From a virus, in IMG/VR virus record IMGVR_UViG_3300015264_000036, positions 1-40,057 of that record: a DNA stretch of 40,057 bases; one strand, written 5' to 3'. Position numbers and translations under genes: made by a program. Positions 2,914 through 38,944 of this stretch are shown piece by piece (the first letter of the stretch is position 1; every line of letters starts with the position of its first letter). Below the pieces are notes generated by a model, which did not search any database, had not been told where the DNA came from, and was given only the letters and a program-made list of their open reading frames with translations.

Positions 2914-3663
2914 TTAGGCGCTTAAACACGGGGAGCAATGTTGGACCCATACTTTCTCAACGAAAGTCTCCATGGCTTTTCCTCCAAACATACCGATCAA
3001 AGCTAGGAATATAGCTTCTTTATCGGTAAATTCATTGAATAAGTTCAATGCTCCCATCATTAAACCCAATGCTACCGCCGTTAATCCGCCGGAGCCACGA
3101 GAAAGAAGGTTGTAATCTTCCAGGCTCGTTTGTGTTTGTGACAACCAAACATCAGAAACATACTTTATAATTCTGCCGTTTAAATAAGGAAATGCAGTTA
3201 AACTAAAGTTTGCCAGTAAATAATTTTTTTTAATCTCTTCATGAAAAGCTCTGGTCATAACATATCCAATTATTCCACTAATAAAAAATCCAATTACTTG
3301 TTTATGAAATGGTAAGTTATCGGGCTTTACAGAAAATAAAGTACTTTTAGTGTGTCTGCTCGGAATAGATGAAGCGATTGAATGCGTCTCATCTATATCC
3401 ATTTGTTCTATAGTTCTCGCGGAGGAATGTGGGCTCTCAACATTCAATCGAGGATCATTATCTGGTATCAGTTGGTCTTCTGTGGGAAGAGGCGCAGGGT
3501 TTTCTTTTGTATATACAATCACACGAGGGCGGCTAGGGGGAGGTTGACCGGTTAAGGATTGATTATCAACTGAAAGATACGTTGTATGAGTAGTTTGCGT
3601 TATTCGATGCGTTTCTATGTGCTGAACATTACTATTAAAAAATGATTTAAATTTTGAAAACAT
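2914..3663 (-). CDS. Multi-TM protein with disordered N-terminus, paralogue A
   Basis: 249 residues: a Ser/Thr/Pro-rich, probably disordered N-terminal 115 residues, then several hydrophobic segments (near residues 128-145, 155-170, 195-212 and 217-235). The membrane half aligns with the neighbouring gene at 3691-4332: both carry SGIIGY, a PY(L/I).GR(I/V)(I/V) motif, a (E/D)DY segment, a small-residue-rich helix and GGKAME/AGKAME near the end. This marks a tandem duplication. An AAGGAG ribosome site precedes the ATG. No known family; membrane location is clear, function is not. Confidence 0.85.
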   Translation of the reverse strand: MFSKFKSFFNSNVQHIETHRITQTTHTTYLSVDNQSLTGQPPPSRPRVIVYTKENPAPLPTEDQLIPDNDPRLNVESPHSSARTIEQMDIDETHSIASSIPSRHTKSTLFSVKPDNLPFHKQVIGFFISGIIGYVMTRAFHEEIKKNYLLANFSLTAFPYLNGRIIKYVSDVWLSQTQTSLEDYNLLSRGSGGLTAVALGLMMGALNLFNEFTDKEAIFLALIGMFGGKAMETFVEKVWVQHCSPCLSA

Positions 3664-3690
3664 AGCTTTTCTCCTTTTAGAAAAATTAAG

Positions 3691-4332
3691 TTAACCTACT
3701 GTTTTTTTATTACATGTTTTTGCAATCGCATGCTCCGTAAATACCTCCATGGCTTTTCCTGCTGCCAGACCAAAAAATCCAAGCCCCAATGTTTCTGCCA
3801 AATTGAATTTACCAAAAAGTCCTGTTGATCCTACAATACTCCCTAATCCCATGGTAGAAAGTGCTCCTACTATCCTATTTCTTATCATGTAATCGTCAGG
3901 ATTAGTTTTTTCTTTACCTAACCATTTTGACGCAACATGGTTCACTACGCGTCCGGAAATATAAGGTAAGCATGTAAATAGAAAAGATGCTAAAAACTTG
4001 CTTTGTTTGGATGTTTCAAATGAACTTTCTATTCCTATCATCACGAAGTATCCAATTATTCCAGAATATAAGAAGTCGGCCGTTTCTTTGTAGAGAGGGA
4101 GTTTAGAAGGTTTTCCATATATCCATGAAGTCGTTATTCCTGAAAATTCTGATCCCGAATCATCGTGTTGCTTCAATGCACTTTTAGTTTTTCTTGAAAC
4201 AGGAGGTGATGCCAAGAGATCAGGTGTTTCTCTTGCCAATTCATCTATTGTTTCAATCGAATCATAGGTTACCCTTTTACCTGAAAGTAATGTCAACGAC
4301 ATTGTATCGTTTGAATCACTGTTATTCTGCAT
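3691..4332 (-). CDS. Multi-TM protein with disordered N-terminus, paralogue B
   Basis: 213 residues from ATG 4332, preferred over the in-frame ATG at 4389 because AGGAAAG lies five bases before it and the longer form would overlap the upstream gene. The first 80 residues are polar and low in hydrophobics. The remainder has four likely membrane segments with the same motifs as the adjacent paralogue (SGIIGY, LPYISGRVV, PDDY, GKAMEVF). Sequence identity is modest, so the duplication is old or the copies have diverged under selection. Candidate roles are superinfection exclusion or other membrane remodelling, but this is only inference. Confidence 0.82.
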   Translation of the reverse strand: MQNNSDSNDTMSLTLLSGKRVTYDSIETIDELARETPDLLASPPVSRKTKSALKQHDDSGSEFSGITTSWIYGKPSKLPLYKETADFLYSGIIGYFVMIGIESSFETSKQSKFLASFLFTCLPYISGRVVNHVASKWLGKEKTNPDDYMIRNRIVGALSTMGLGSIVGSTGLFGKFNLAETLGLGFFGLAAGKAMEVFTEHAIAKTCNKKTVG

Positions 4333-4361
4333 CGTTCTTTCCTGTAAAATATGTGGAATAG

Positions 4362-4760
4362 TTATATATAGGTTTTTTCTCTTTTGCATTCAATGTACTT
4401 TATTTCGCTGGATCCATAATTTGAATGATCGCTAATATAAAAAGTTTCTACGCGATCTCCATCGTCATATGATTCTTCTACACATATTTTTAGTTCATTT
4501 TTAATTAAAAGTTTATTTAACTCGACCATCACTTGTTTTAATTCTGCAACGTAAGGAGGGTGAAGTTCTCTTTTAATTTCATGAATCACGGCAGATAATC
4601 GACAGGATTGGTTAAAACTGATGTCGTATTGTGCCTCCAAAACAGCAAGTTTCTCTTTTATTTCTTCTTCCTCTATTTCACTTCTAGTTTTTCCTGTAGT
4701 AGAATTATCTGGATTAAACGTAATTTTCATTCCGTCGAAATAGGGGTTTACTTTTTTCAT
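4362..4760 (-). CDS. Unknown protein, paralogue of the gene at 7143-7454
   Basis: 132 residues from ATG 4760, which has AGGAAG six bases upstream. A longer in-frame start at 4910 would pass through the tRNA-like segment and the end of the previous gene and is rejected. After a short N-terminus comes a coiled coil (IEEEEIKEKLAVLEAQY), then a domain with LNKLLIKNELKICVEESYDD, TFYIS and a C-terminal IKYIECKREKTYI. The gene at 7143-7454 has the same order: a coiled coil, INKFLKENELEIFCESDYE, TFYIS and ISYIEYKGQKIYV. Family unknown; the pair marks a duplication inside this operon. Confidence 0.8.
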   Translation of the reverse strand: MKKVNPYFDGMKITFNPDNSTTGKTRSEIEEEEIKEKLAVLEAQYDISFNQSCRLSAVIHEIKRELHPPYVAELKQVMVELNKLLIKNELKICVEESYDDGDRVETFYISDHSNYGSSEIKYIECKREKTYI

Positions 4761-9647: not shown

Positions 9648-9848
9648 TTATGCTGATATACTGATAGAGCCATCTAACTTTCTCTGTTCGTATATCTCTT
9701 CTCTATCAATAATCACATTTTTATCTGCTGAAAATCCTAATCTAATTTGCGATTTCGATCGGTTACACACGAGCGCTGTAACCTTAATTTCTTTCCCATC
9801 GACATTAATCATAATAGATTCACCTGATCTTCGGGTAAGCACTAACAT
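9648..9848 (-). CDS. csrA: CsrA/RsmA-type translational regulator
   Basis: 66 residues with the full CsrA signature: MLVLTRR at the start, GE at 9-10, then IRLGFSADKNVIIDREEIY. The RNA-contacting residues Leu4, Arg6, Arg7 and the Arg of DREEIY (Arg49, equivalent to Arg44 in E. coli) are all present. The central loop is a few residues longer than in E. coli (around VCNRSKSQ). CsrA dimers bind GGA in hairpin loops of mRNA leaders and usually block ribosome entry. AAAAGGAG precedes the ATG, and the gene overlaps the end of its upstream neighbour. It may retarget host carbon storage/virulence control or time phage gene translation. Confidence 0.95.
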   Translation of the reverse strand: MLVLTRRSGESIMINVDGKEIKVTALVCNRSKSQIRLGFSADKNVIIDREEIYEQRKLDGSISISA

Positions 9849-10052: not shown

Positions 10053-11027
10053 CTATGAAAGATCTTCGTTGTCAAAAAATTCTGTATTTTTTGACTCGAT
10101 TATCTTAAGTTCATCGTCAAGAATTTTATTTTTCTTTTTATTTTTTAAGAGGGTGACTTCTTTTAGAAAGTCTCCTTCACGGTGTTCTCGACATATTCTT
10201 TGCGAATCTTCAAATATCACTTTTAGATCTTCTATAGTGATAGCCAATTCAATCGCATCCCTTACTTGCTGTTTTTCTTCTTGAGTCAGTGATTTTTTTT
10301 CTATTGACTGTTTTACTTCGACCACCTCTTTTCTTGCTTTTATTTCTTTGTGCAATTCTGGAAAATTAGAACTCTCTTCCACATCTTGTGTAAAGATACA
10401 AGAAGCTCCAGTTGCATTTATTGTAGCAGCTATGAGAGCACGTTTGCATGCCATTTTAAGAACCGTATTCCAACAATCTGCGATATCTTTATTTTCTGTT
10501 TTACCAACGGGTTGCGATACGAGTCTTTCATCAGTCAATGGAAATTTTGCATTACAACCCCCTTTCTTTGTATTACAGTAAAAGTTCTTATTCCAAGACT
10601 CGTCTCCTTTCCCTTTTGAGATAGAGTCATTCCCACAATCAGGACACACTATTCCACCCGTTCTATATCTATATTTGCTTTCTAAAGTAGAGCAAGACCC
10701 GAGACCTCTAGCAACAAGCTTTCCGGTGATGATGTGGATAAGGTCACATGAAACGAGATAGTTTCGATGATTTGCTTCTAGCTTTTCTTCCTTCCAATCA
10801 TAGACGGGAGAAAATCTAAACATCATATTTAACTTTTGAGCTCCCGGTAATAGTAGAGAAGGCTTTGATGTTCCCGGAAGTTTTCCATAATCTTCATTTA
10901 TCACCATAACCTTGGTCATTACACTTTGAACTTTATGTAGCATTCGTACTAAATCATCGATAGTAAGCTCTTCTTGCACAGACATGGACTTTGTTTCTTG
11001 TATTATCATTTGATTTTCTGATGACAT
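10053..11027 (-). CDS. Phage recombination-module protein with zinc finger (possible ssDNA-annealing type)
   Basis: 324 residues. The core has the pattern DYGKLPG..KPSLLLPGAQKL (46-65), then a beta-rich segment, an inserted four-Cys zinc ribbon (C128, C131, C151, C158), and a helix VLKMACKRALIAATINATGASCIFTQD. I know this pattern from a widespread phage family found with recombination and replication genes, and the KRAL..A...ATGA helix resembles that of Erf/Rad52-like annealing proteins. That link is inference; no biochemistry is known to me. The C-terminal 120 residues are a charged coiled coil. The gene follows the small gene at 11029-11253, whose end carries the AAGGAG ribosome site. Confidence 0.7.
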   Translation of the reverse strand: MSSENQMIIQETKSMSVQEELTIDDLVRMLHKVQSVMTKVMVINEDYGKLPGTSKPSLLLPGAQKLNMMFRFSPVYDWKEEKLEANHRNYLVSCDLIHIITGKLVARGLGSCSTLESKYRYRTGGIVCPDCGNDSISKGKGDESWNKNFYCNTKKGGCNAKFPLTDERLVSQPVGKTENKDIADCWNTVLKMACKRALIAATINATGASCIFTQDVEESSNFPELHKEIKARKEVVEVKQSIEKKSLTQEEKQQVRDAIELAITIEDLKVIFEDSQRICREHREGDFLKEVTLLKNKKKNKILDDELKIIESKNTEFFDNEDLS

Positions 11028-11253: not shown

Positions 11254-11378
11254 TGTAAAATCTCCTTTTTAAAGTGAAAACCCCGTAGTTTCAATAGGTA
11301 ACGACTGACTATTCCCACTCGCCTTCTTCCCAACATTATTAGAAACAATTTTTCTTCACTACTAAAATAGTCTTTCAT
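11250..11378 (-). CDS. Small basic protein, 42 aa
   Basis: ATG 11378 overlaps the stop of the upstream gene (ATGA) and its TGA overlaps the ATG of the downstream gene (ATGA). Such double coupling is strong evidence for translation even though the frame is short. The product has an acidic start (MKDYFSSEEKLF) and then a basic hydrophobic stretch (IMLGRRRVGIVSRYLLKLRGF). No homologue is recognised. Confidence 0.72.
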   Translation of the reverse strand: MKDYFSSEEKLFLIMLGRRRVGIVSRYLLKLRGFHFKKEILQ

Positions 11379-11773
11379 AAAGACCTCTGTGCATCATAGC
11401 GATTTTCAAGAATTTCCGAATGTCTTTTCACCAGGACTTGAAAATTATCAATCACCTCATCTTTTAACAAAGCACCTATTTCTTTTCGATAATAACTATT
11501 TCCCATATTTTTTATTTCTTCTAATAAATCAAATGCACTATCACTATCTTGATGGATAAGATACTGGGATATACGATACATTAAACTATTCTCGAAATCT
11601 CCATGAGTACCAGCAGCTTCCCTGACAAAATCCATTTGATTATCAATGTTATCATCAGCCAACAATTCACCTGTTAACTGACATTTATCGTCGCTATCTA
11701 AATCATCATAATCATAAATTCCTTTTTCAAACAGGTAATGAATATGATCACCCAATGAAGTATGTACTTTCAT
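11375..11773 (-). CDS. Unknown acidic protein, 132 aa, first gene of the leftward operon
   Basis: The start is ATG 11773, which has CAGGAG seven bases upstream; an in-frame ATG at 11896 would give a 173-residue form but has no ribosome site and covers the leader. The protein is very acidic (DYDDLDSDDK) and helical, with LLEEIKNMGNSYYRKEIGALLKDEVIDNF near the end. It ends in an ATGA overlap. As the first product of the leftward operon it may be a DNA mimic or a regulator, but no family is recognised. Confidence 0.75.
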   Translation of the reverse strand: MKVHTSLGDHIHYLFEKGIYDYDDLDSDDKCQLTGELLADDNIDNQMDFVREAAGTHGDFENSLMYRISQYLIHQDSDSAFDLLEEIKNMGNSYYRKEIGALLKDEVIDNFQVLVKRHSEILENRYDAQRSL

Positions 11774-11817
11774 AATGTTCTCCTGTGATGTATAGTTAGT
11801 TATAACATGTTGTCCGT

Positions 11818-11839
11818 AAAAAATCAGAATCGCTTCTGA
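11818..11839 (-). terminator. Possible attenuator hairpin in the leftward leader
   Basis: On the minus strand ATCAGAA-GCGA-TTCTGAT forms a perfect 7-bp stem with a 4-base loop, followed by a short T-run (five T including the last stem base). It lies in the untranslated leader between the leftward promoter (11920-11947) and the first gene. The stem is AT-rich and the T-run short, so termination would be partial; it could be an attenuator or antitermination target. Confidence 0.4.
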
Positions 11840-11919
11840 TAAATCAAGCATAGTACGGATTACATGTTGTGTCTGTAAGCTATATCTGAAAGTCATGTAA
11901 GCATTTAGCTCGGTTGTTT

Positions 11920-11947
11920 ATTATTTGCACGCTAAGATTATGGTCAA
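11920..11947 (-). promoter_or_regulatory. Leftward promoter of the divergent switch
   Basis: Minus strand TTGACC (11947-11942), 16-base spacer, AATAAT (11925-11920); each box matches the sigma-70 consensus in 5 of 6 positions. It would start transcription near 11913 and feed the left-arm operon through a leader of about 140 bases. Its -35 box is the same DNA as the -35 box of the rightward promoter. Confidence 0.7.
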
Positions 11948-11969
11948 AAATCTACTTTAACTCTATAAA
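11941..11969 (+). promoter_or_regulatory. Rightward promoter of the divergent switch
   Basis: Plus strand TGGTCA (11941-11946), 17-base spacer, TATAAA (11964-11969); 4 of 6 and 5 of 6 consensus matches. A dyad CTATA-AA-TATAG (11962-11973) covers the -10 box and is a candidate operator for the downstream regulator. The transcript would begin near 11976, giving a leader of only about 8 bases before the ATG at 11984. Confidence 0.62.
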
Positions 11970-11983
11970 TATAGGTATATTTC

Positions 11984-12190
11984 ATGAAAAATAACAAAGT
12001 AAAGAATTTACGTCTTCAATTACAACTGACCCAGAGACAGTTTGCAAAAGAGTTAGGTGTGACATTACTCAGTGTGTGTAATTACGAGTCAGGAAAGCAT
12101 ATTCCGCATTCATTAACAATGGAAAAGATCATTCAATTAGCGAAACGTTATCGAATTAAACTCGAATTGTCGGATCTTTTGGAGAAATAA
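11984..12190 (+). CDS. Cro/CI-type helix-turn-helix regulator
   Basis: 68 residues, the size of a Cro-like protein. A helix-turn-helix of the Xre family spans about residues 5-60, with LRLQLQLTQRQFAKELGVT as helices 1-2, LLSVCNYESGKH as the recognition region and MEKIIQLAKRYRIKLEL after it. No dimerisation or protease-sensitive C-terminal domain is present, so it is not a full CI. It sits directly beside the overlapping divergent promoters and is the obvious candidate to bind there. Next gene starts 3 bases after its stop, with GGAG inside its last codons. Confidence 0.88.
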   Translation: MKNNKVKNLRLQLQLTQRQFAKELGVTLLSVCNYESGKHIPHSLTMEKIIQLAKRYRIKLELSDLLEK

Positions 12191-12192
12191 TT

Positions 12193-13122
12193 ATGAATCC
12201 ATGGTTTAAGCATGATATTTACACGGTAAATGACCCAAAGATCATTGTTCTTTTGAACGAATTTGGGGGTATTGCCTATGCCTTTTTCTGGCGCATTATA
12301 GAGATGTTATATGCGTCAGAGAGCGGGGATCTGATTCTTGATCAGACACTTCTCTTAAGCCTTTCTGTTCAGCTAAAGACGCCAACAGAGACTTTAAAGG
12401 ACATCCTGACAAGGTGTTTTGATCTCAATATCTTCACAAAAACTGTCAGCTATGATCCTACAAATAGGGATAAAAACACCCTAAAATTAGATCAAAACTT
12501 TGGATCAAAAACCCCTAAAATGATCCAAAATGATCCAAAAAATGATCCAGATCATTTGGATCAGATTCTGGATCATTTCGTGCAAAATGATCCAACTGTT
12601 TTTACCTCAAAAAGAGTAAAGGAAACTATACATGAGAAGTCAAAGAAATGGCGTCAGTTCAAGGAAAACCAATCCTCCTATGGTAAAAAAGGAGGGCGGC
12701 CAGCTGGTTCAGTAAATCTGGATCAGAAAGGGTACGAAAGCCAAGAAGTAGATTTAGAAAAGAATAATAAAGATCTTAGATCTAAACAACTGAAAAGTAA
12801 TATTATAAAAATAAGATCTAAAACACACTGGTCAAATTTTAATTTTTTTTGGAAATTTTACCCGAAACGCGTTGCCAAACTTGCAGCGTACAAAATTTGG
12901 ACAACTAAAAAATTGGATGAGCACTTACCGCTCATTTTAAAAAATTTGGAAGAACGAAAAAACGATGACGAATGGAAAAGAGGTTTTATTCCCAACCCAT
13001 CGAATTATCTCAACAACGAGCGATGGTTAGACGAAGTCCAGTACAAATCGCCTATCAAAAAAAAATTCACGGACGGTATTTTTGAAAACAACCTAAAAAT
13101 TTTACAAGGAGATCTCGCATGA
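12193..13122 (+). CDS. Phage replication initiator (DUF4373/replisome organiser type)
   Basis: 309 residues. The first 90 residues (WFKHDIYTVNDPKIIVLLNEFGGIAYAFFWRIIEML) match the Lin1244/Lin1753-type DUF4373 winged-helix domain of phage replisome organisers. A low-complexity middle (residues 95-130) is encoded by the iteron cluster. The C-terminal part (FWKFYPKR...AAYKIW...L...W.RGFIPNPSNYLNNERW) is the conserved tail of phage initiator proteins that contacts the helicase loader. Role: bind origin repeats and recruit the replication fork machinery, as lambda O does. It overlaps the next gene by ATGA. Confidence 0.87.
   Translation: MNPWFKHDIYTVNDPKIIVLLNEFGGIAYAFFWRIIEMLYASESGDLILDQTLLLSLSVQLKTPTETLKDILTRCFDLNIFTKTVSYDPTNRDKNTLKLDQNFGSKTPKMIQNDPKNDPDHLDQILDHFVQNDPTVFTSKRVKETIHEKSKKWRQFKENQSSYGKKGGRPAGSVNLDQKGYESQEVDLEKNNKDLRSKQLKSNIIKIRSKTHWSNFNFFWKFYPKRVAKLAAYKIWTTKKLDEHLPLILKNLEERKNDDEWKRGFIPNPSNYLNNERWLDEVQYKSPIKKKFTDGIFENNLKILQGDLA
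12487..12594 (+). repeat. Iteron-like cluster inside the initiator gene (candidate replication origin)
   Basis: Seven copies of the 7-mer TGATCCA occur here: forward at 12521, 12531, 12543 and 12588, reverse (TGGATCA) at 12501, 12557 and 12569. Spacings between neighbours are 10-14 or 19-20 bases, close to one or two helix turns. The tract has nine GATC sites in about 103 bp and sits in AT-rich DNA. Iterons inside the initiator gene are the classic lambdoid arrangement. The encoded peptide is low-complexity (NDP repeats), as expected if DNA rather than protein is under selection. Confidence 0.78.
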
Positions 13123-13886
13123 CTGAACAACAATCAAAAAATATTTCACTGCTTTTCATGAAGTTTCAAGTGCTCTGGCGTGATAAATGGACGCGTGATA
13201 TTTCAAGCATCGAGTTTGAGAATGAGTTAAAAGAGACTTGGATTTCAGCATTAAAAGGGCTTACGGGGCAGCAAATTGAAACAGCACTCGACATGTGTCG
13301 AAAAAGTTTTTCATGGCCTGTTACCCCTCCAGAGTTTCGTTGTTTAGCTATCGGCGCTGTCACACCGTGTGAAGCGTGGCAAGCGGTAAGAGCGAATGAT
13401 TTGACAAATCCGTACGTGTTTCACGCTGCTCAGAAAGTTGGGAGTTGGACGTTGAAACATTCGAGCGAGCAAGAAGCACGGAAACAATTCCTTGCAACTT
13501 ACCTTAATTGTACAAAAAATGAACAACTAAGAGAATCGAGTTTTAAGGCCATCAGAAGCTCTCCTGAAATCAATCCTTTGTCATTGATCATTCGAGGTGA
13601 TTATAACGCAACAGAAGACTCCTCAGGCTCAAACAGAGCCATTCCGGAAGCATATAAAGAACAGCATTCGCATGATAAGTCAGAAATCTCAAAGTTAGAG
13701 GAAGATGCTGTACAAAAAAAGAACAATGAAGAATTGAGGAGAATACGATTACTTTCTATCCCAGTTTACGAACTCAACACGCTTTCGAAAGAAGATCAAA
13801 TTGACTGGCTTATGTATGATTCGCAAAAAAGATGGAATTCTGAAAACAGAGCACAACTAACTACTTTAAAAACAGGATATGCATGA
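13119..13886 (+). CDS. Lambda P-like replication protein / helicase loader candidate
   Basis: 255 residues, translated by ATGA overlap from the initiator gene. The N-terminal 90 residues fit the P-protein pattern: a helix with FENELKETWISALKGLTGQQIETALDMCRKS followed by a Trp-Pro-Pro-type segment (FSWPVTPPEFRCLA), as in lambda P (replication fork hijacking by loading or capturing DnaB). The C-terminal third is polar and less conserved. Position right after the initiator supports the assignment; overall similarity is low, so the loader role is inference. Confidence 0.68.
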   Translation: MTEQQSKNISLLFMKFQVLWRDKWTRDISSIEFENELKETWISALKGLTGQQIETALDMCRKSFSWPVTPPEFRCLAIGAVTPCEAWQAVRANDLTNPYVFHAAQKVGSWTLKHSSEQEARKQFLATYLNCTKNEQLRESSFKAIRSSPEINPLSLIIRGDYNATEDSSGSNRAIPEAYKEQHSHDKSEISKLEEDAVQKKNNEELRRIRLLSIPVYELNTLSKEDQIDWLMYDSQKRWNSENRAQLTTLKTGYA

Positions 13887-14183: not shown

Positions 14184-14212
14184 TTGACAGATTATATAGT
14201 TTACTATATTCT
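14184..14212 (+). promoter_or_regulatory. Sigma-70 promoter with internal dyad
   Basis: TTGACA (14184-14189) is followed by either TATATT (14205-14210, spacer 15) or TATTCT (14207-14212, spacer 17). A perfect dyad ATATAGT-TT-ACTATAT (14194-14209) fills the spacer and -10 region and resembles the inner dyad of the promoter at 9615-9642, also a TTGACA promoter, suggesting one shared repressor. Transcription would start about 14217-14220, at the base of a long hairpin. Confidence 0.72.
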
Positions 14213-34540: not shown

Positions 34541-36300
34541 TTGAAGCATTTAAACTAGCGGCTATTCTAAATCTCGAAGGAAATTCTTTTACTAAGTTAA
34601 AAGAATTGATGACGTTATTGAAGAAGACCCAGCGTGAATTTTCCAAGCTAAATACTCTCACAAAAGCGTTTAATACCAACCTGTCGAAGTCACGTGCTAA
34701 CGATCCTTTCAGGCGTCTTAATCAAAGCTTAGCCGTAACTCAGCGAAGAATGGCATCGGTAGTCGCCCAATCCCGTGCACTTAATCGTTCTTTAGAAGGT
34801 GGAGCTGCCGCTGGAGCGGTTGAAGAAGGTGCCCTGGCTGCTGCTTCTCGCAGTGGTCGACGCGGTGGTGGACTAAGTCGAAAACGTGGTGCGTTTCACC
34901 AGCACGCACGAAGTCATTTTGATTTAGGTGGGGTTGGCATTACTAACAATATGCCATTGGGAGCGGCTATGGGTGCGGGGTTAGTCGCAGCTGGCGCATA
35001 CGAAGCTTATCAAGCCGGTAGTGAATGGAGTCGACAAGTCGCTCGTGTTCGAATGCAGGGATTTACTTCGGGAGAAGTTAATCAAGCAAAAGCGTATGCC
35101 ATGAATACCAGAATACCAGGTATCTCACATATAGCGATGATGGAAGCGGTGAGAGATTCTGCCATGGCAACCAAAAGTATGCCAATGGCGTTGAAGCTCG
35201 CAAAACCAATGGCAGAGATTCAATATGCCAATTCTATTATCTATCATAAACAATATACGGGTGCCCAAAGTTCTTCTTTGATTAAGTATGCCGAAGCCCG
35301 GGGTGGTGGCAATTTAAACAAAACCGTGGGTGCCTTGAATGAAGCACAAAAATTGATCTCCTTATCCGGTGGAAACTTCGATCCTATTCAGTTGAGAGCC
35401 ATGATGAGGCATGGAGCATTAGCATTACAACATGTTTCAAGTATTGGAATGGCTGGTTTAGAGCCAGTTGCGCAAGAAGTCCAAGGAAATACAGTTGGAA
35501 GTGGGCTTCAGACATTAAGTTATGAATTAATCGGTGGACATATCTATAAGAAATCAGCGGCAAACTTAGTAAGAACTGGATTCGGCAAATGGGGTAAAAA
35601 TGGATTTGAGTTAAAAAAGAAATGGAAGAATCTTCTGATGACAAATCCAGCAGCATTTGCCTTTGGAGTGCATGATACGCTTCAATCGCGTGGTTATTCA
35701 GAGAAACAAATATCTGAGTTTGAAACAAGAAATTTTGTAAGAAGGGGCGGAATGCTAGTTGCGTTACTTAACAAGAATCGTTCAAAAATTATGCGAACAT
35801 GGGAACTTTACCCCGAAGCCTTTGGTATAAACAGATCCGTATCAGAAGCGCATGGAATGCCTGGTGGACAAATGAAAAACCTAAGCGCCGCATTTCAAGA
35901 TTTCTCGACGGCTTTATGGAAATTGTCTAAACCTGGGATTATAGATGGCATAAAAGCATTAACTCTTTTGTTAAACAAACTAACGGATGCCCTGACTTTC
36001 TTGAAAAAGCACAATATTCTTCCAACCGTTGGACAAGCCTTGGGAACGGCAGCCAGTAGTGCTGTAGGAGGTATTGGTGGTGGCATGTTAGAAGATTATA
36101 TCTACAAAAATTATGTTCTTCATAACAATGGGGTAAAACCAACAGAACCACTGCAAATGTATCTTGATCCACATGAGTTTCAACATGCGATAGGTTCGGG
36201 TCTTAATACGATTGCGACCAAACAACCTACGACTATTACGGGTATTAATTCTTTTGAAACGCGATTTACAGCGCCGTTTAACGGAAATGTGGGGCTCTGA
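34537..36300 (+). CDS. Tape measure protein
   Basis: 587 residues. N-terminal coiled coil (LKELMTLLKKTQREFSKLNTLTKAFNTNLSKSR, then AVTQRRMASVVAQSRALNRSLEGG), Ala/Gly-rich membrane-like segments near residues 140-165 and 500-520, and long helical repeats between. It overlaps the previous gene by ATGA. It sets tail length; at about 0.15 nm per residue it predicts a tail of roughly 90 nm. The C-terminal 90 residues (LYKNYVLHNNGVKPTEPLQ region) are polar and beta-like. Confidence 0.88.
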   Translation: MIEAFKLAAILNLEGNSFTKLKELMTLLKKTQREFSKLNTLTKAFNTNLSKSRANDPFRRLNQSLAVTQRRMASVVAQSRALNRSLEGGAAAGAVEEGALAAASRSGRRGGGLSRKRGAFHQHARSHFDLGGVGITNNMPLGAAMGAGLVAAGAYEAYQAGSEWSRQVARVRMQGFTSGEVNQAKAYAMNTRIPGISHIAMMEAVRDSAMATKSMPMALKLAKPMAEIQYANSIIYHKQYTGAQSSSLIKYAEARGGGNLNKTVGALNEAQKLISLSGGNFDPIQLRAMMRHGALALQHVSSIGMAGLEPVAQEVQGNTVGSGLQTLSYELIGGHIYKKSAANLVRTGFGKWGKNGFELKKKWKNLLMTNPAAFAFGVHDTLQSRGYSEKQISEFETRNFVRRGGMLVALLNKNRSKIMRTWELYPEAFGINRSVSEAHGMPGGQMKNLSAAFQDFSTALWKLSKPGIIDGIKALTLLLNKLTDALTFLKKHNILPTVGQALGTAASSAVGGIGGGMLEDYIYKNYVLHNNGVKPTEPLQMYLDPHEFQHAIGSGLNTIATKQPTTITGINSFETRFTAPFNGNVGL

Positions 36301-36911
36301 TGCCAGCTATTCTCATACTTGGTGATATAGAATTTCTTGATACGGAAATTCCATCTCGTATTAACTTTGCCGGCCATCAGATGCTCGGGGTCCATACGAT
36401 GATTGGTGGCCAACGACAAGTTGATGCGATGGGTGTTAACCCCGATGATCAAACGTGGCACGGTATGTTTTTTGGAGAGAATGCAAAGTTCAGGGCACAG
36501 TTTTTGGAACAAATGGCTCAATCGGGTTTGGCATATGGATTAACATATGAAGGGTTTTCTTATTCGGTAGTTATTCGCTATTTCAAACCGTTATACGAAG
36601 CACCCTTTAAAATTCCTTATACGATTTCTGTTGTTGTTGTAGAAAATTTAACCAATCCTATTAATGTTTTACCATTAGCGAGTTATGATCAGGAAATTCA
36701 AACAGCTCTTTTTGAAGCTTATAACATTGCACTTCTACTGAAGAATGATCCGATTGACGGCGCAATCGCAGCTGTGAATGTGGCAACAGAAAATGTGAAT
36801 TTTAATGATGCTTCATTAATTGAGTTAAACAATATTGGCGTTGTTATCCAAAGTGCGAGAAATGTTGTTGGGACTCAGATCCAACAATTAACGAAGGAGA
36901 TATTCGGATGA
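36300..36911 (+). CDS. gpU-like tail/baseplate protein
   Basis: 203 residues. N-terminal ILGDIEFLDTEIPSRINFAGHQMLGVHTMIGGQRQVDAMGVNPDDQTWHGMFFGE matches the start of P2 U-like and related baseplate proteins (an SH3-like module at the tube end); the second half is helical. The start overlaps the tape-measure stop (TGATG). It probably forms the hub-tube junction. Function by pattern and order. Confidence 0.72.
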   Translation: MPAILILGDIEFLDTEIPSRINFAGHQMLGVHTMIGGQRQVDAMGVNPDDQTWHGMFFGENAKFRAQFLEQMAQSGLAYGLTYEGFSYSVVIRYFKPLYEAPFKIPYTISVVVVENLTNPINVLPLASYDQEIQTALFEAYNIALLLKNDPIDGAIAAVNVATENVNFNDASLIELNNIGVVIQSARNVVGTQIQQLTKEIFG

Positions 36912-37216
36912 GTACACCAGCCGATATCCTCGCTGATCAATTATTGCAGCTTAATCAGATGTATCAACTGAAGTATTTGTTAGATAAGAATATCAAGAAT
37001 ATTGATTTGATCATTAATGGCGGCAATGGAACCTTATTGACCATTTTAAATGCTGACTTATTTCAGCTAGCGGCTTTCTATTATAAAGATTATAAAAAAT
37101 GGACCGTAATTGCCGATGCGAACAACTTAGTTTCGCCATTAATAAACAGTTCCACACCCTTGCAAATCGTTATTCCGAAAAGTGGACAAGATACCGGAGG
37201 ATTGAGAATTGACTAA
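36908..37216 (+). CDS. LysM-like gpX-type tail protein, 102 aa
   Basis: The C-terminal half carries a LysM-like module (LFQLAAFYYKDYKKWTVIADANNL.SPLINSSTPLQIVIP), the usual gpX/gp53-type element that docks the hub to peptidoglycan or to the tube. The N-terminal half is helical (LADQLLQLNQMYQLKYLLDKNIKNID). ATG overlaps the previous stop (ATGA); the end overlaps the next gene. Confidence 0.8.
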   Translation: MSTPADILADQLLQLNQMYQLKYLLDKNIKNIDLIINGGNGTLLTILNADLFQLAAFYYKDYKKWTVIADANNLVSPLINSSTPLQIVIPKSGQDTGGLRID

Positions 37217-38333
37217 TGCGATTTCCTTTGTCCCTTCTGTAAAACCACCACGGTGTATTATTCAAGTGAATGATACGGCTGTGAAATATTTAGATGTTCA
37301 GATTGAGACAAGTGATTTTACATCAGCAGATGAATTTACTGTAAATGTTCCATTGAACGGACAACAAAAACCATTTAGTTTTGGTTATTGGGCAAATGCA
37401 GCACAATTTTTAGTCAAGTTGTATGTTGGGTTTCCCTCAAACCCGCAACAGTTTACACAAGATGATCTTGAATTAGTGTTTGTGGGGAAAGCTGATAACT
37501 GTTACGTGGATCCGGTTAAGGGAATAGTACGTTTAATAGGACGCGATTTAACAGCTCGATTGATTGATAAAAAAACCACGAGGAAGTTTTCGAGTTTAAC
37601 GGCGTCACAACTGGCTATCCAATTTGCGAATGAAAATGGTTTAACACCTATTGTAACACCGACTCATACCACCTTAGGGAGTTTTTACTTTCTCGATCAA
37701 ACGTTCTTAAGTCGAACAGAGACCGAATGGGATTTGTTGGTAGCAGCAGCAACACAAGAGAACTTTGTTGTGTATGTGGAAGCAGACAAGCTTATCTTTA
37801 AACCAAAGCCCACAACGCAATCAAATCCGTATGTGATTTATTATCACCAACCAACAAATACATTTGCGTCCCCCATTTCAAATGTAGAAAGAATAACATT
37901 CGAAAGGGATATGACGCTTGCGCAAGATGTGATTGTAAAGGTGAAATGTCCTTATAGTAGTGCAACCGGGAATGATTTTACGGTAAAGGCAACGGCTCAT
38001 AATACATCACGTTCTCAGTTAAAAGGGTTGCCAGTTCCCTCGGACCATAAACAGGTTTATACGTTCATTAAACCCGGTTTAACAAAAGAACAGGCACTGC
38101 AATACGCCCGAAGTGTTCTGAGCAATATTGCGCAGCACGGCATAAAAATGTACGCCACTTTACCTGGTGATCCGAAATTTAAAAAAGATACGGTGATTCA
38201 AGTCCAAGGTACCGAAAGTGATTACGATACCTATTATTACATGTCGAATATATTGAGAACGATTAGACCGAATGGATTTAAGATGACTATATCCACTAAA
38301 AATAGTCCAACTAATAGCGAGATAGTGGTATGA
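37209..38333 (+). CDS. Baseplate hub protein (gpD-like / Mu gp44-like)
   Basis: 374 residues of beta-rich sequence: start PRCIIQVNDTAVKYLDVQIETSDFTSADEFTVNVPL, central VRLIGRDLTARLIDKKTTRKFSSLTASQLAIQFANENGLT, and a C-terminal segment with KPGLTKEQALQYARSVLSNIAQHGIKMYATLPGDPKFK. This is the late control D / hub family whose trimer holds the spike. Gene order with the X-like and V-like genes supports it. Confidence 0.9.
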   Translation: MTNAISFVPSVKPPRCIIQVNDTAVKYLDVQIETSDFTSADEFTVNVPLNGQQKPFSFGYWANAAQFLVKLYVGFPSNPQQFTQDDLELVFVGKADNCYVDPVKGIVRLIGRDLTARLIDKKTTRKFSSLTASQLAIQFANENGLTPIVTPTHTTLGSFYFLDQTFLSRTETEWDLLVAAATQENFVVYVEADKLIFKPKPTTQSNPYVIYYHQPTNTFASPISNVERITFERDMTLAQDVIVKVKCPYSSATGNDFTVKATAHNTSRSQLKGLPVPSDHKQVYTFIKPGLTKEQALQYARSVLSNIAQHGIKMYATLPGDPKFKKDTVIQVQGTESDYDTYYYMSNILRTIRPNGFKMTISTKNSPTNSEIVV

Positions 38334-38944
38334 GCAGTGTCATGAACGCGTTGCGTATGAATGCAGCGGTCACGCAAAATACTAAGTATTTTACGCAATT
38401 AGGAATCATTGCTGCCTATGATACAAGTCGCCATATGGCGCAAGTTATTTTACAAACATCTTTTGAAGATGATCCGCAATTACAAACGGGATGGTTGAGA
38501 ATCTCAACTCAAATGATAAGTAATTCTTGGAGTATTTATAGTTCGCCAAGCTACGGAACCATGTGTGAGGTTACTTTTCAAGAAGGTAATATAAATACAG
38601 GCATTATCACTTCCTTCTTGAATACACCGTCACAGCTTCCGGCCAATGTTCCGCAAGGTGAACACTGGTTAGTACATTCATCGGGAGCTTCTATTAAGTT
38701 ACAAAAAGATGGAAATGCTACGGTTAATATTCCAGTTATTACCGTGAATTGTACCGATGCCCAAATAAATGCCAGTGGGAAAATTGATATCGAATCTCAA
38801 AGTGATATGAAAATAAAAAGTCAAACAAAAATAGATATTGATGCGCCAATGGTAAATATTGGAGATACCCATACCATTCCAACCACATTATTGCCATTAG
38901 TCAAACAAGGCGGCGCACCCGCTGTTAATGTGAAGGGAAGCTAA
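38330..38944 (+). CDS. Baseplate spike protein (gpV-like / Mu gp45-like)
   Basis: 204 residues. An N-terminal OB-like part (RHMAQVILQTSFEDDPQLQTGWLRISTQM ... PSYGTMCEVTFQEGNINTGIITSFLN) and a C-terminal beta-helix with repeating strands (ASIKLQKDGNATVNIPVITVNCTDAQINASGKIDIESQSDMKIKSQTKIDIDAP) match the central spike of contractile tails. ATGA overlap with the hub gene. The tip ends in VKQGGAPAVNVKGS with no His-rich metal motif visible. Confidence 0.9.
   Translation: MSSVMNALRMNAAVTQNTKYFTQLGIIAAYDTSRHMAQVILQTSFEDDPQLQTGWLRISTQMISNSWSIYSSPSYGTMCEVTFQEGNINTGIITSFLNTPSQLPANVPQGEHWLVHSSGASIKLQKDGNATVNIPVITVNCTDAQINASGKIDIESQSDMKIKSQTKIDIDAPMVNIGDTHTIPTTLLPLVKQGGAPAVNVKGS

Follow-up and report, generated by a model that had tools for sequence, protein, structure and literature searches.

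The 210-bp gap at 11774–11983 is probably an ordinary divergent early control region, in which a rightward promoter serves xre, a replication initiator and a loader, a leftward leader carries a control hairpin, and Xre regulates its own expression. The gap lies in a 40,057-base IMG/VR virus record (IMGVR_UViG_3300015264_000036), analyzed over its whole length and called the window here. An initial annotation had described back-to-back promoters sharing one −35 palindrome beside a Cro-like gene, and had proposed that the shared element builds mutual exclusion into the DNA and makes the site a master switch. The described sequences are present and the control region is likely real, whereas their reading as built-in exclusion and as a master switch is not supported.

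Divergent arms and a related phage

The window encodes a tail sheath, a terminase, a portal and a major head protein. Lists of open reading frames by arm place plausible genes leftward to the left of 11773 and rightward to the right of 11984, so that both arms diverge from one place, the gap. The first leftward gene (11375–11773, minus strand) encodes a 132-aa protein for which profile searches found no family and whose structure model (pLDDT 53) is too poor for use. On the plus strand, the right arm encodes, in order, a 68-aa Xre protein of the Cro/C1 helix–turn–helix (HTH) type (11984–12190; PF01381, E = 1.8e-8; model pLDDT 89.5 with an HTH fold and PDB neighbors), a replication initiator (12193–13122; matches to phrog_9327, phrog_9474 and Lin1244_N), and a probable P-like helicase loader (13119–13886; a weak match to phrog_109 and a stronger one to phrog_1524, of unknown function). 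Within the initiator gene, the iteron array AAATGATCC(A) occurs in several forward and inverted copies at 12516–12595 and is likely a replication origin resembling that in lambda O.

A search with the tail sheath identified one relative, IMGVR_UViG_3300010401_000017 (G010; 43.3 kb, sheath 73% identical), which is probably complete since it carries a 123-bp direct terminal repeat. The window itself is probably incomplete, as it lacks approximately 2.9 kb of G010 (35590–38505) that would join its two ends. G010 has the same divergent arms, with leftward genes ending and rightward genes beginning in the same layout and with orthologous flanking genes (Xre 51% identical, replication initiator 65%, first leftward protein 62%), and it carries a similar iteron array (L044 7320–7386). 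The control regions are 72% identical with zero indels over 11774–11975 and share four perfect blocks of 24, 24, 16 and 15 bp; when the pattern of matches was permuted 20,000 times, no permutation gave two 24-bp perfect runs. All statements on conservation here compare two sequences, the window and G010. Among 50,697 phage records, neither a nucleotide search with the control region nor a search with Xre gave a match. Queries with Xre, the replication initiator, a 324-aa protein, the terminase, the 132-aa leftward protein, a baseplate-region protein and an 18-mer from one of the blocks (block C, below) showed no relative with the early region besides G010. L002 had a partial Xre match alone (45% over 42 residues), and L046, one of two further records that matched the 18-mer, had none of the other blocks in the sequence read around the match.

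Several other genes also have counterparts in the two genomes. Both phages encode CsrA (window 9648–9848, minus strand, PF02599, E = 1.2e-15; G010 L044 4486–4689, minus strand; 43% identical). The 324-aa protein used as a query (phrog_10048; 10053–11027, minus strand) has as its positional counterpart in G010 a 249-aa protein (L044 4888–5637), and their likeness is limited to the C-terminal ~66 residues (54% identical), as if one tail had been joined to two different N-terminal domains. At 2914–4389 on the minus strand, two neighboring and apparently paralogous membrane-type proteins lack a PHROG match, and a membrane-type protein resembling them is encoded near the right end of G010 (L053 14665–15255).

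Overlapping promoters and the xre start region

The letters and coordinates given for both promoters proved correct. The rightward promoter (11941–11969, plus strand) consists of TGGTCA at 11941–11946 and TATAAA at 11964–11969 with a 17-bp spacer, and was missed by the standard scan because of an A at position 6. Its leftward promoter-like partner (11920–11947, minus strand) consists of TTGACC at 11947–11942 and AATAAT at 11925–11920 with a 16-bp spacer. Scored against a sigma70-type consensus, which may not be that of the host, the two reach 9/12 and 10/12, respectively, the latter being the best minus-strand site in the gap. Predicted starts lie ~63 bp apart, at ~11976 (plus) and ~11913 (minus). 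The shared heptamer TGGTCAA is not the palindrome it was taken for, as its reverse complement is TTGACCA, and only GGTCA, 5 bp, is common to both −35 hexamers. The dyad CTATA-AA-TATAG, also reported initially, is present at 11963–11974 over the rightward −10 box and beside the xre gene; with its 5-bp arms it is one among several of that size in the control region.

Such overlaps are expected by chance. Counting as a pair any divergent promoters with −35 hexamers overlapping by at least 5 bp and at least 9/12 on each side, we found four in the whole 40-kb window, where dinucleotide shuffles average 4.0, and four in G010 against 4.8 expected. For the 210-bp intergenic region alone, 4.75% of dinucleotide shuffles contain such a pair, and 1.75% do so at the observed total score. 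A second pair at 14184–14190 (TTGACA-17-TATTCT / CTGTCA-17-TTTAAT) was used as a control for chance; it reaches the equal total score of 19/24 within the rightward arm, where it separates two genes that both run rightward. Because pairs occur at chance level, the geometry is no evidence by itself; the control-region pair is credible solely for its position, where the arms diverge.

The initial annotation had also proposed comparing the region in related phages, and here the two promoters part ways. The rightward promoter is kept: G010 has TTAACA-17-TATAAA in the same place (10/12), and the promoter is supported by a −35 element 17 bp from TATAAA in each phage. Its −10 box lies in block A, ACTCTATAAATATAGG (11960–11975, plus strand), which also holds the dyad and an AGG upstream of xre, is identical at 16/16 positions in G010 and occurs once per genome. 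The leftward core promoter and the −35 overlap are not kept. Conservation within the gap is lowest at 11924–11943, the leftward core promoter, with AATAAT aligned to AGAAAT and TTGACC to TTGTTA; G010 has no leftward site of at least 9/12 in its control region, and no overlapping pair at that site. With the leftward core lost by consensus in G010 and the pair at chance frequency, the idea that mutual exclusion is built into the DNA is not supported.

Nor is a role for the dyad as an Xre operator supported. The recognition helix of Xre, whose position we take by analogy with 434 repressor, reads TLLSVCN in the window and CKISVSY in G010; the dyad is unchanged while these residues differ, which disfavors it as an Xre operator. 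Its conservation would be better explained by constraint on the promoter (−10 box) or on a ribosome site. For repeated operators that two antagonistic repressors might share, the only candidates were ATAACATGTTGT at 11802 and ATTACATGTTGT at 11859, which are not conserved in G010. ACATGTT repeats were rejected as an established Xre operator, being unconserved in G010 and at background frequency. A weak lead is that a single element (CTATAT..T...AGT) occurs in opposite orientations in blocks A and C.

The conserved leftward leader

A leftward transcript starting near 11913 would carry a leader of ~140 nt (11774–11913, minus strand), followed by AGGAG and the ATG at 11773. Differences between the window and G010 fall 7/13/13 by codon position in this leader as against 42/23/63 in the first leftward gene, and the leader is therefore probably non-coding. 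A start at 11896, as in the listed open reading frame 11375–11896 with 41 additional upstream codons, was rejected on the same non-coding substitution pattern; the gene starts at 11773 after AGGAG.

Three conserved blocks lie in or next to this leader, all on the minus strand. Block B, AATAAACAACCGAGC (11908–11922), is near the presumed leftward start and is conserved in G010; its GAGC can pair with the GCTT of the TGTAAGC at 11896–11902 across a variable 5-nt loop. Block C (11870–11893; 24 bp, identical in G010) includes the TGTAAGC copy at 11874, which is repeated at 11896. This direct repeat (11874–11902) has its copies 22 bp apart with the same spacing in G010, is nearly absent elsewhere in both genomes, and could be a regulator binding site. 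Block F (11817–11840; 24 bp, identical in G010) resembles a terminator when read on the minus strand, with the hairpin ATCAGAA-GCGA-TTCTGAT and T6 behind it, and is the sole element of such form in either genome. Like an attenuator, it places a terminator-like hairpin and U-tract in a conserved, probably non-coding leader, with a weak stem (−6.1 kcal/mol), and it is possibly one. As a candidate alternative structure, block C can form a 9-bp pairing with block F (−10.4 kcal/mol, equaled by 2% of shuffles), and both arms are invariant between window and G010. For the window the folding model favors the terminator and for G010 the pairing of C with F, the overall fold of the G010 leader is not significant (z −0.69), and the leader matched no Rfam family up to E = 1.

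These observations bear on several other ways of reading the region. It is possible, but on balance doubtful, that the rightward promoter alone is used as drawn and that the leftward start depends on another element, either block B's AATAAA, whose −35 is poor, or a site conserved in both phages that needs an activator. Block B is conserved, its AATAAA is equidistant from TTGACC and TTGTTA in the two phages (TTGACC-19-AATAAA, a weak alternative present in both), and G010 does without a leftward site of 9/12; against this, TTGACC-16-AATAAT is by score the strongest minus-strand site available in the window. Another reading, about equally doubtful, that blocks B, C and F are DNA-binding sites for a regulator and not RNA elements, would account for a TGTAAGC repeat that is equally spaced in both phages and found almost nowhere else. 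It sits poorly with the exact coincidence of block F with a hairpin and T-run in the leftward direction, and with a recognition helix that differs between phages while the blocks do not. We consider it unlikely that the leader goes so far as to be a new cis-acting RNA element, switching between a terminator (F) and an antiterminator (C with F), such that left-arm expression is set after initiation and the promoter overlap does no more than shift the balance between leftward and rightward transcription. On the other side of the gap, block A is quite improbably a ribosome-binding and start region in place of a −10 box, with the rightward promoter further upstream. The AGG precedes the xre ATG by 8 nt in the window and 6 nt in G010, and a start at ~11976 would leave an xre leader of ~8 nt from which the AGG is lost; neither phage has a better plus-strand site further upstream.

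Early regulation compared with known switches

The region resembles lambda immR (PR/PRM; cro, cII, O, P) in its divergent promoters and, along the right arm, in the succession of a small Cro/C1-fold gene, an initiator with internal iterons and a P-like loader. It differs in lacking, in the searches made, a CI-type repressor divergent from xre and an integrase, and in having a long leftward leader. The −35 elements overlap in the window, unlike in lambda, where those of the divergent promoters are separated. The nearly leaderless xre mRNA predicted here recalls lambda cI, whose mRNA from PRM is leaderless.

The evidence on lysogeny is less favorable to a switch. Searches for tyrosine integrase (PF00589), serine integrase (PF00239) and S24 (PF00717) gave no match in the window or G010, while in a positive control the integrase, S24 and HTH_3 searches gave matches in most control genomes. 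Each of the two phages has one HTH_3 gene, and the first leftward gene, which has no family, is not recognizable as a repressor. Any lysis–lysogeny switch would thus be without its usual parts, and the master-switch proposal is unsupported. At the level of sequence, the window does share with lambdoid switches the divergent promoters between two early operons and a small Cro-like HTH gene in first rightward position; in the searches made, neither it nor G010 showed a divergent CI-type repressor or integration machinery. What survives of the lambdoid comparison is a divergent control region beside a Cro/C1-fold gene, with a rightward promoter kept in G010, and what falls away is the lysogeny genes. 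The phage is probably a non-integrating myovirus. Temperance of a plasmid or transposition type may still apply: the window has a gene for a Mu Gam-like protein at 2404–2889, although no transposase was found among its open reading frames scanned, and it lacks the 2.9 kb present in G010.

We regard as very improbable the proposal that the shared −35 makes the promoters mutually exclusive and that polymerase competition sets a lysis–lysogeny outcome. The geometry does exist in the window, and there is a precedent in pLS20, where overlapping divergent promoters (Pc/Pr, with Rco) by a regulator gene form part of a proven switch (PMC4207663). In pLS20, one promoter's −10 box seems to fall on the −35 box of its partner, DNA looping is involved and function rests on experiment (PMC4207663); the window likewise has overlapping divergent promoters by a regulator gene, with an overlap of 5 bp between −35 boxes whose role is hypothetical. 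Weighing against the proposal are the chance frequency of such pairs, the leftward core that G010 does not conserve, the absence of integrase and repressor genes among those searched for in either phage, and the behavior of tested E. coli bidirectional promoters, whose basal transcription was too weak for polymerases to compete and which showed competition only upon activation of one direction (PMC12825309). Those promoters share a −10 element, with starts often 10, 18 or 23 bp apart (PMC12825309); two polymerases are excluded at once in both cases, with predicted starts ~63 bp apart in the window. Taken together, the two studies make the exclusion idea physically reasonable, and the second warns against inferring function from overlap alone. 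Polymerase competition is thus plausible physically and unsupported as the controlling mechanism. With HK022 put RNA (PMC9378689), and with attenuator leaders, the window has in common an early phage leader that contains a conserved structured element; the window's element differs in being a single-copy candidate without an Rfam match, for which no put-type sequence is shown.

In the ordinary control region that we favor, a sigma70-type rightward promoter overlapping block A would transcribe xre along with the initiator and loader genes, from a start that leaves the xre mRNA almost without a leader. Transcription of the left operon would come from a promoter near 11913–11947 and pass through the non-coding leader, in which the conserved terminator-like hairpin is a probable point of control after initiation. 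Xre, judging from its fold and position, most likely controls its own expression and modulates one or both promoters through sites in the control region. The 5-bp −35 overlap is a feature of the window isolate and would hinder two polymerases from binding together.

Promoter geometry that looks designed, yet occurs at chance frequency and is lost in the nearest relative, should not be read as a built-in switch. The conserved leftward leader is a more interesting lead than the shared −35, next to which the region's best-conserved parts are found. The conserved parts of the region, the rightward −10 region and the non-coding leftward leader with its terminator-like hairpin, offer a starting point for early gene control in a little-known phage group.
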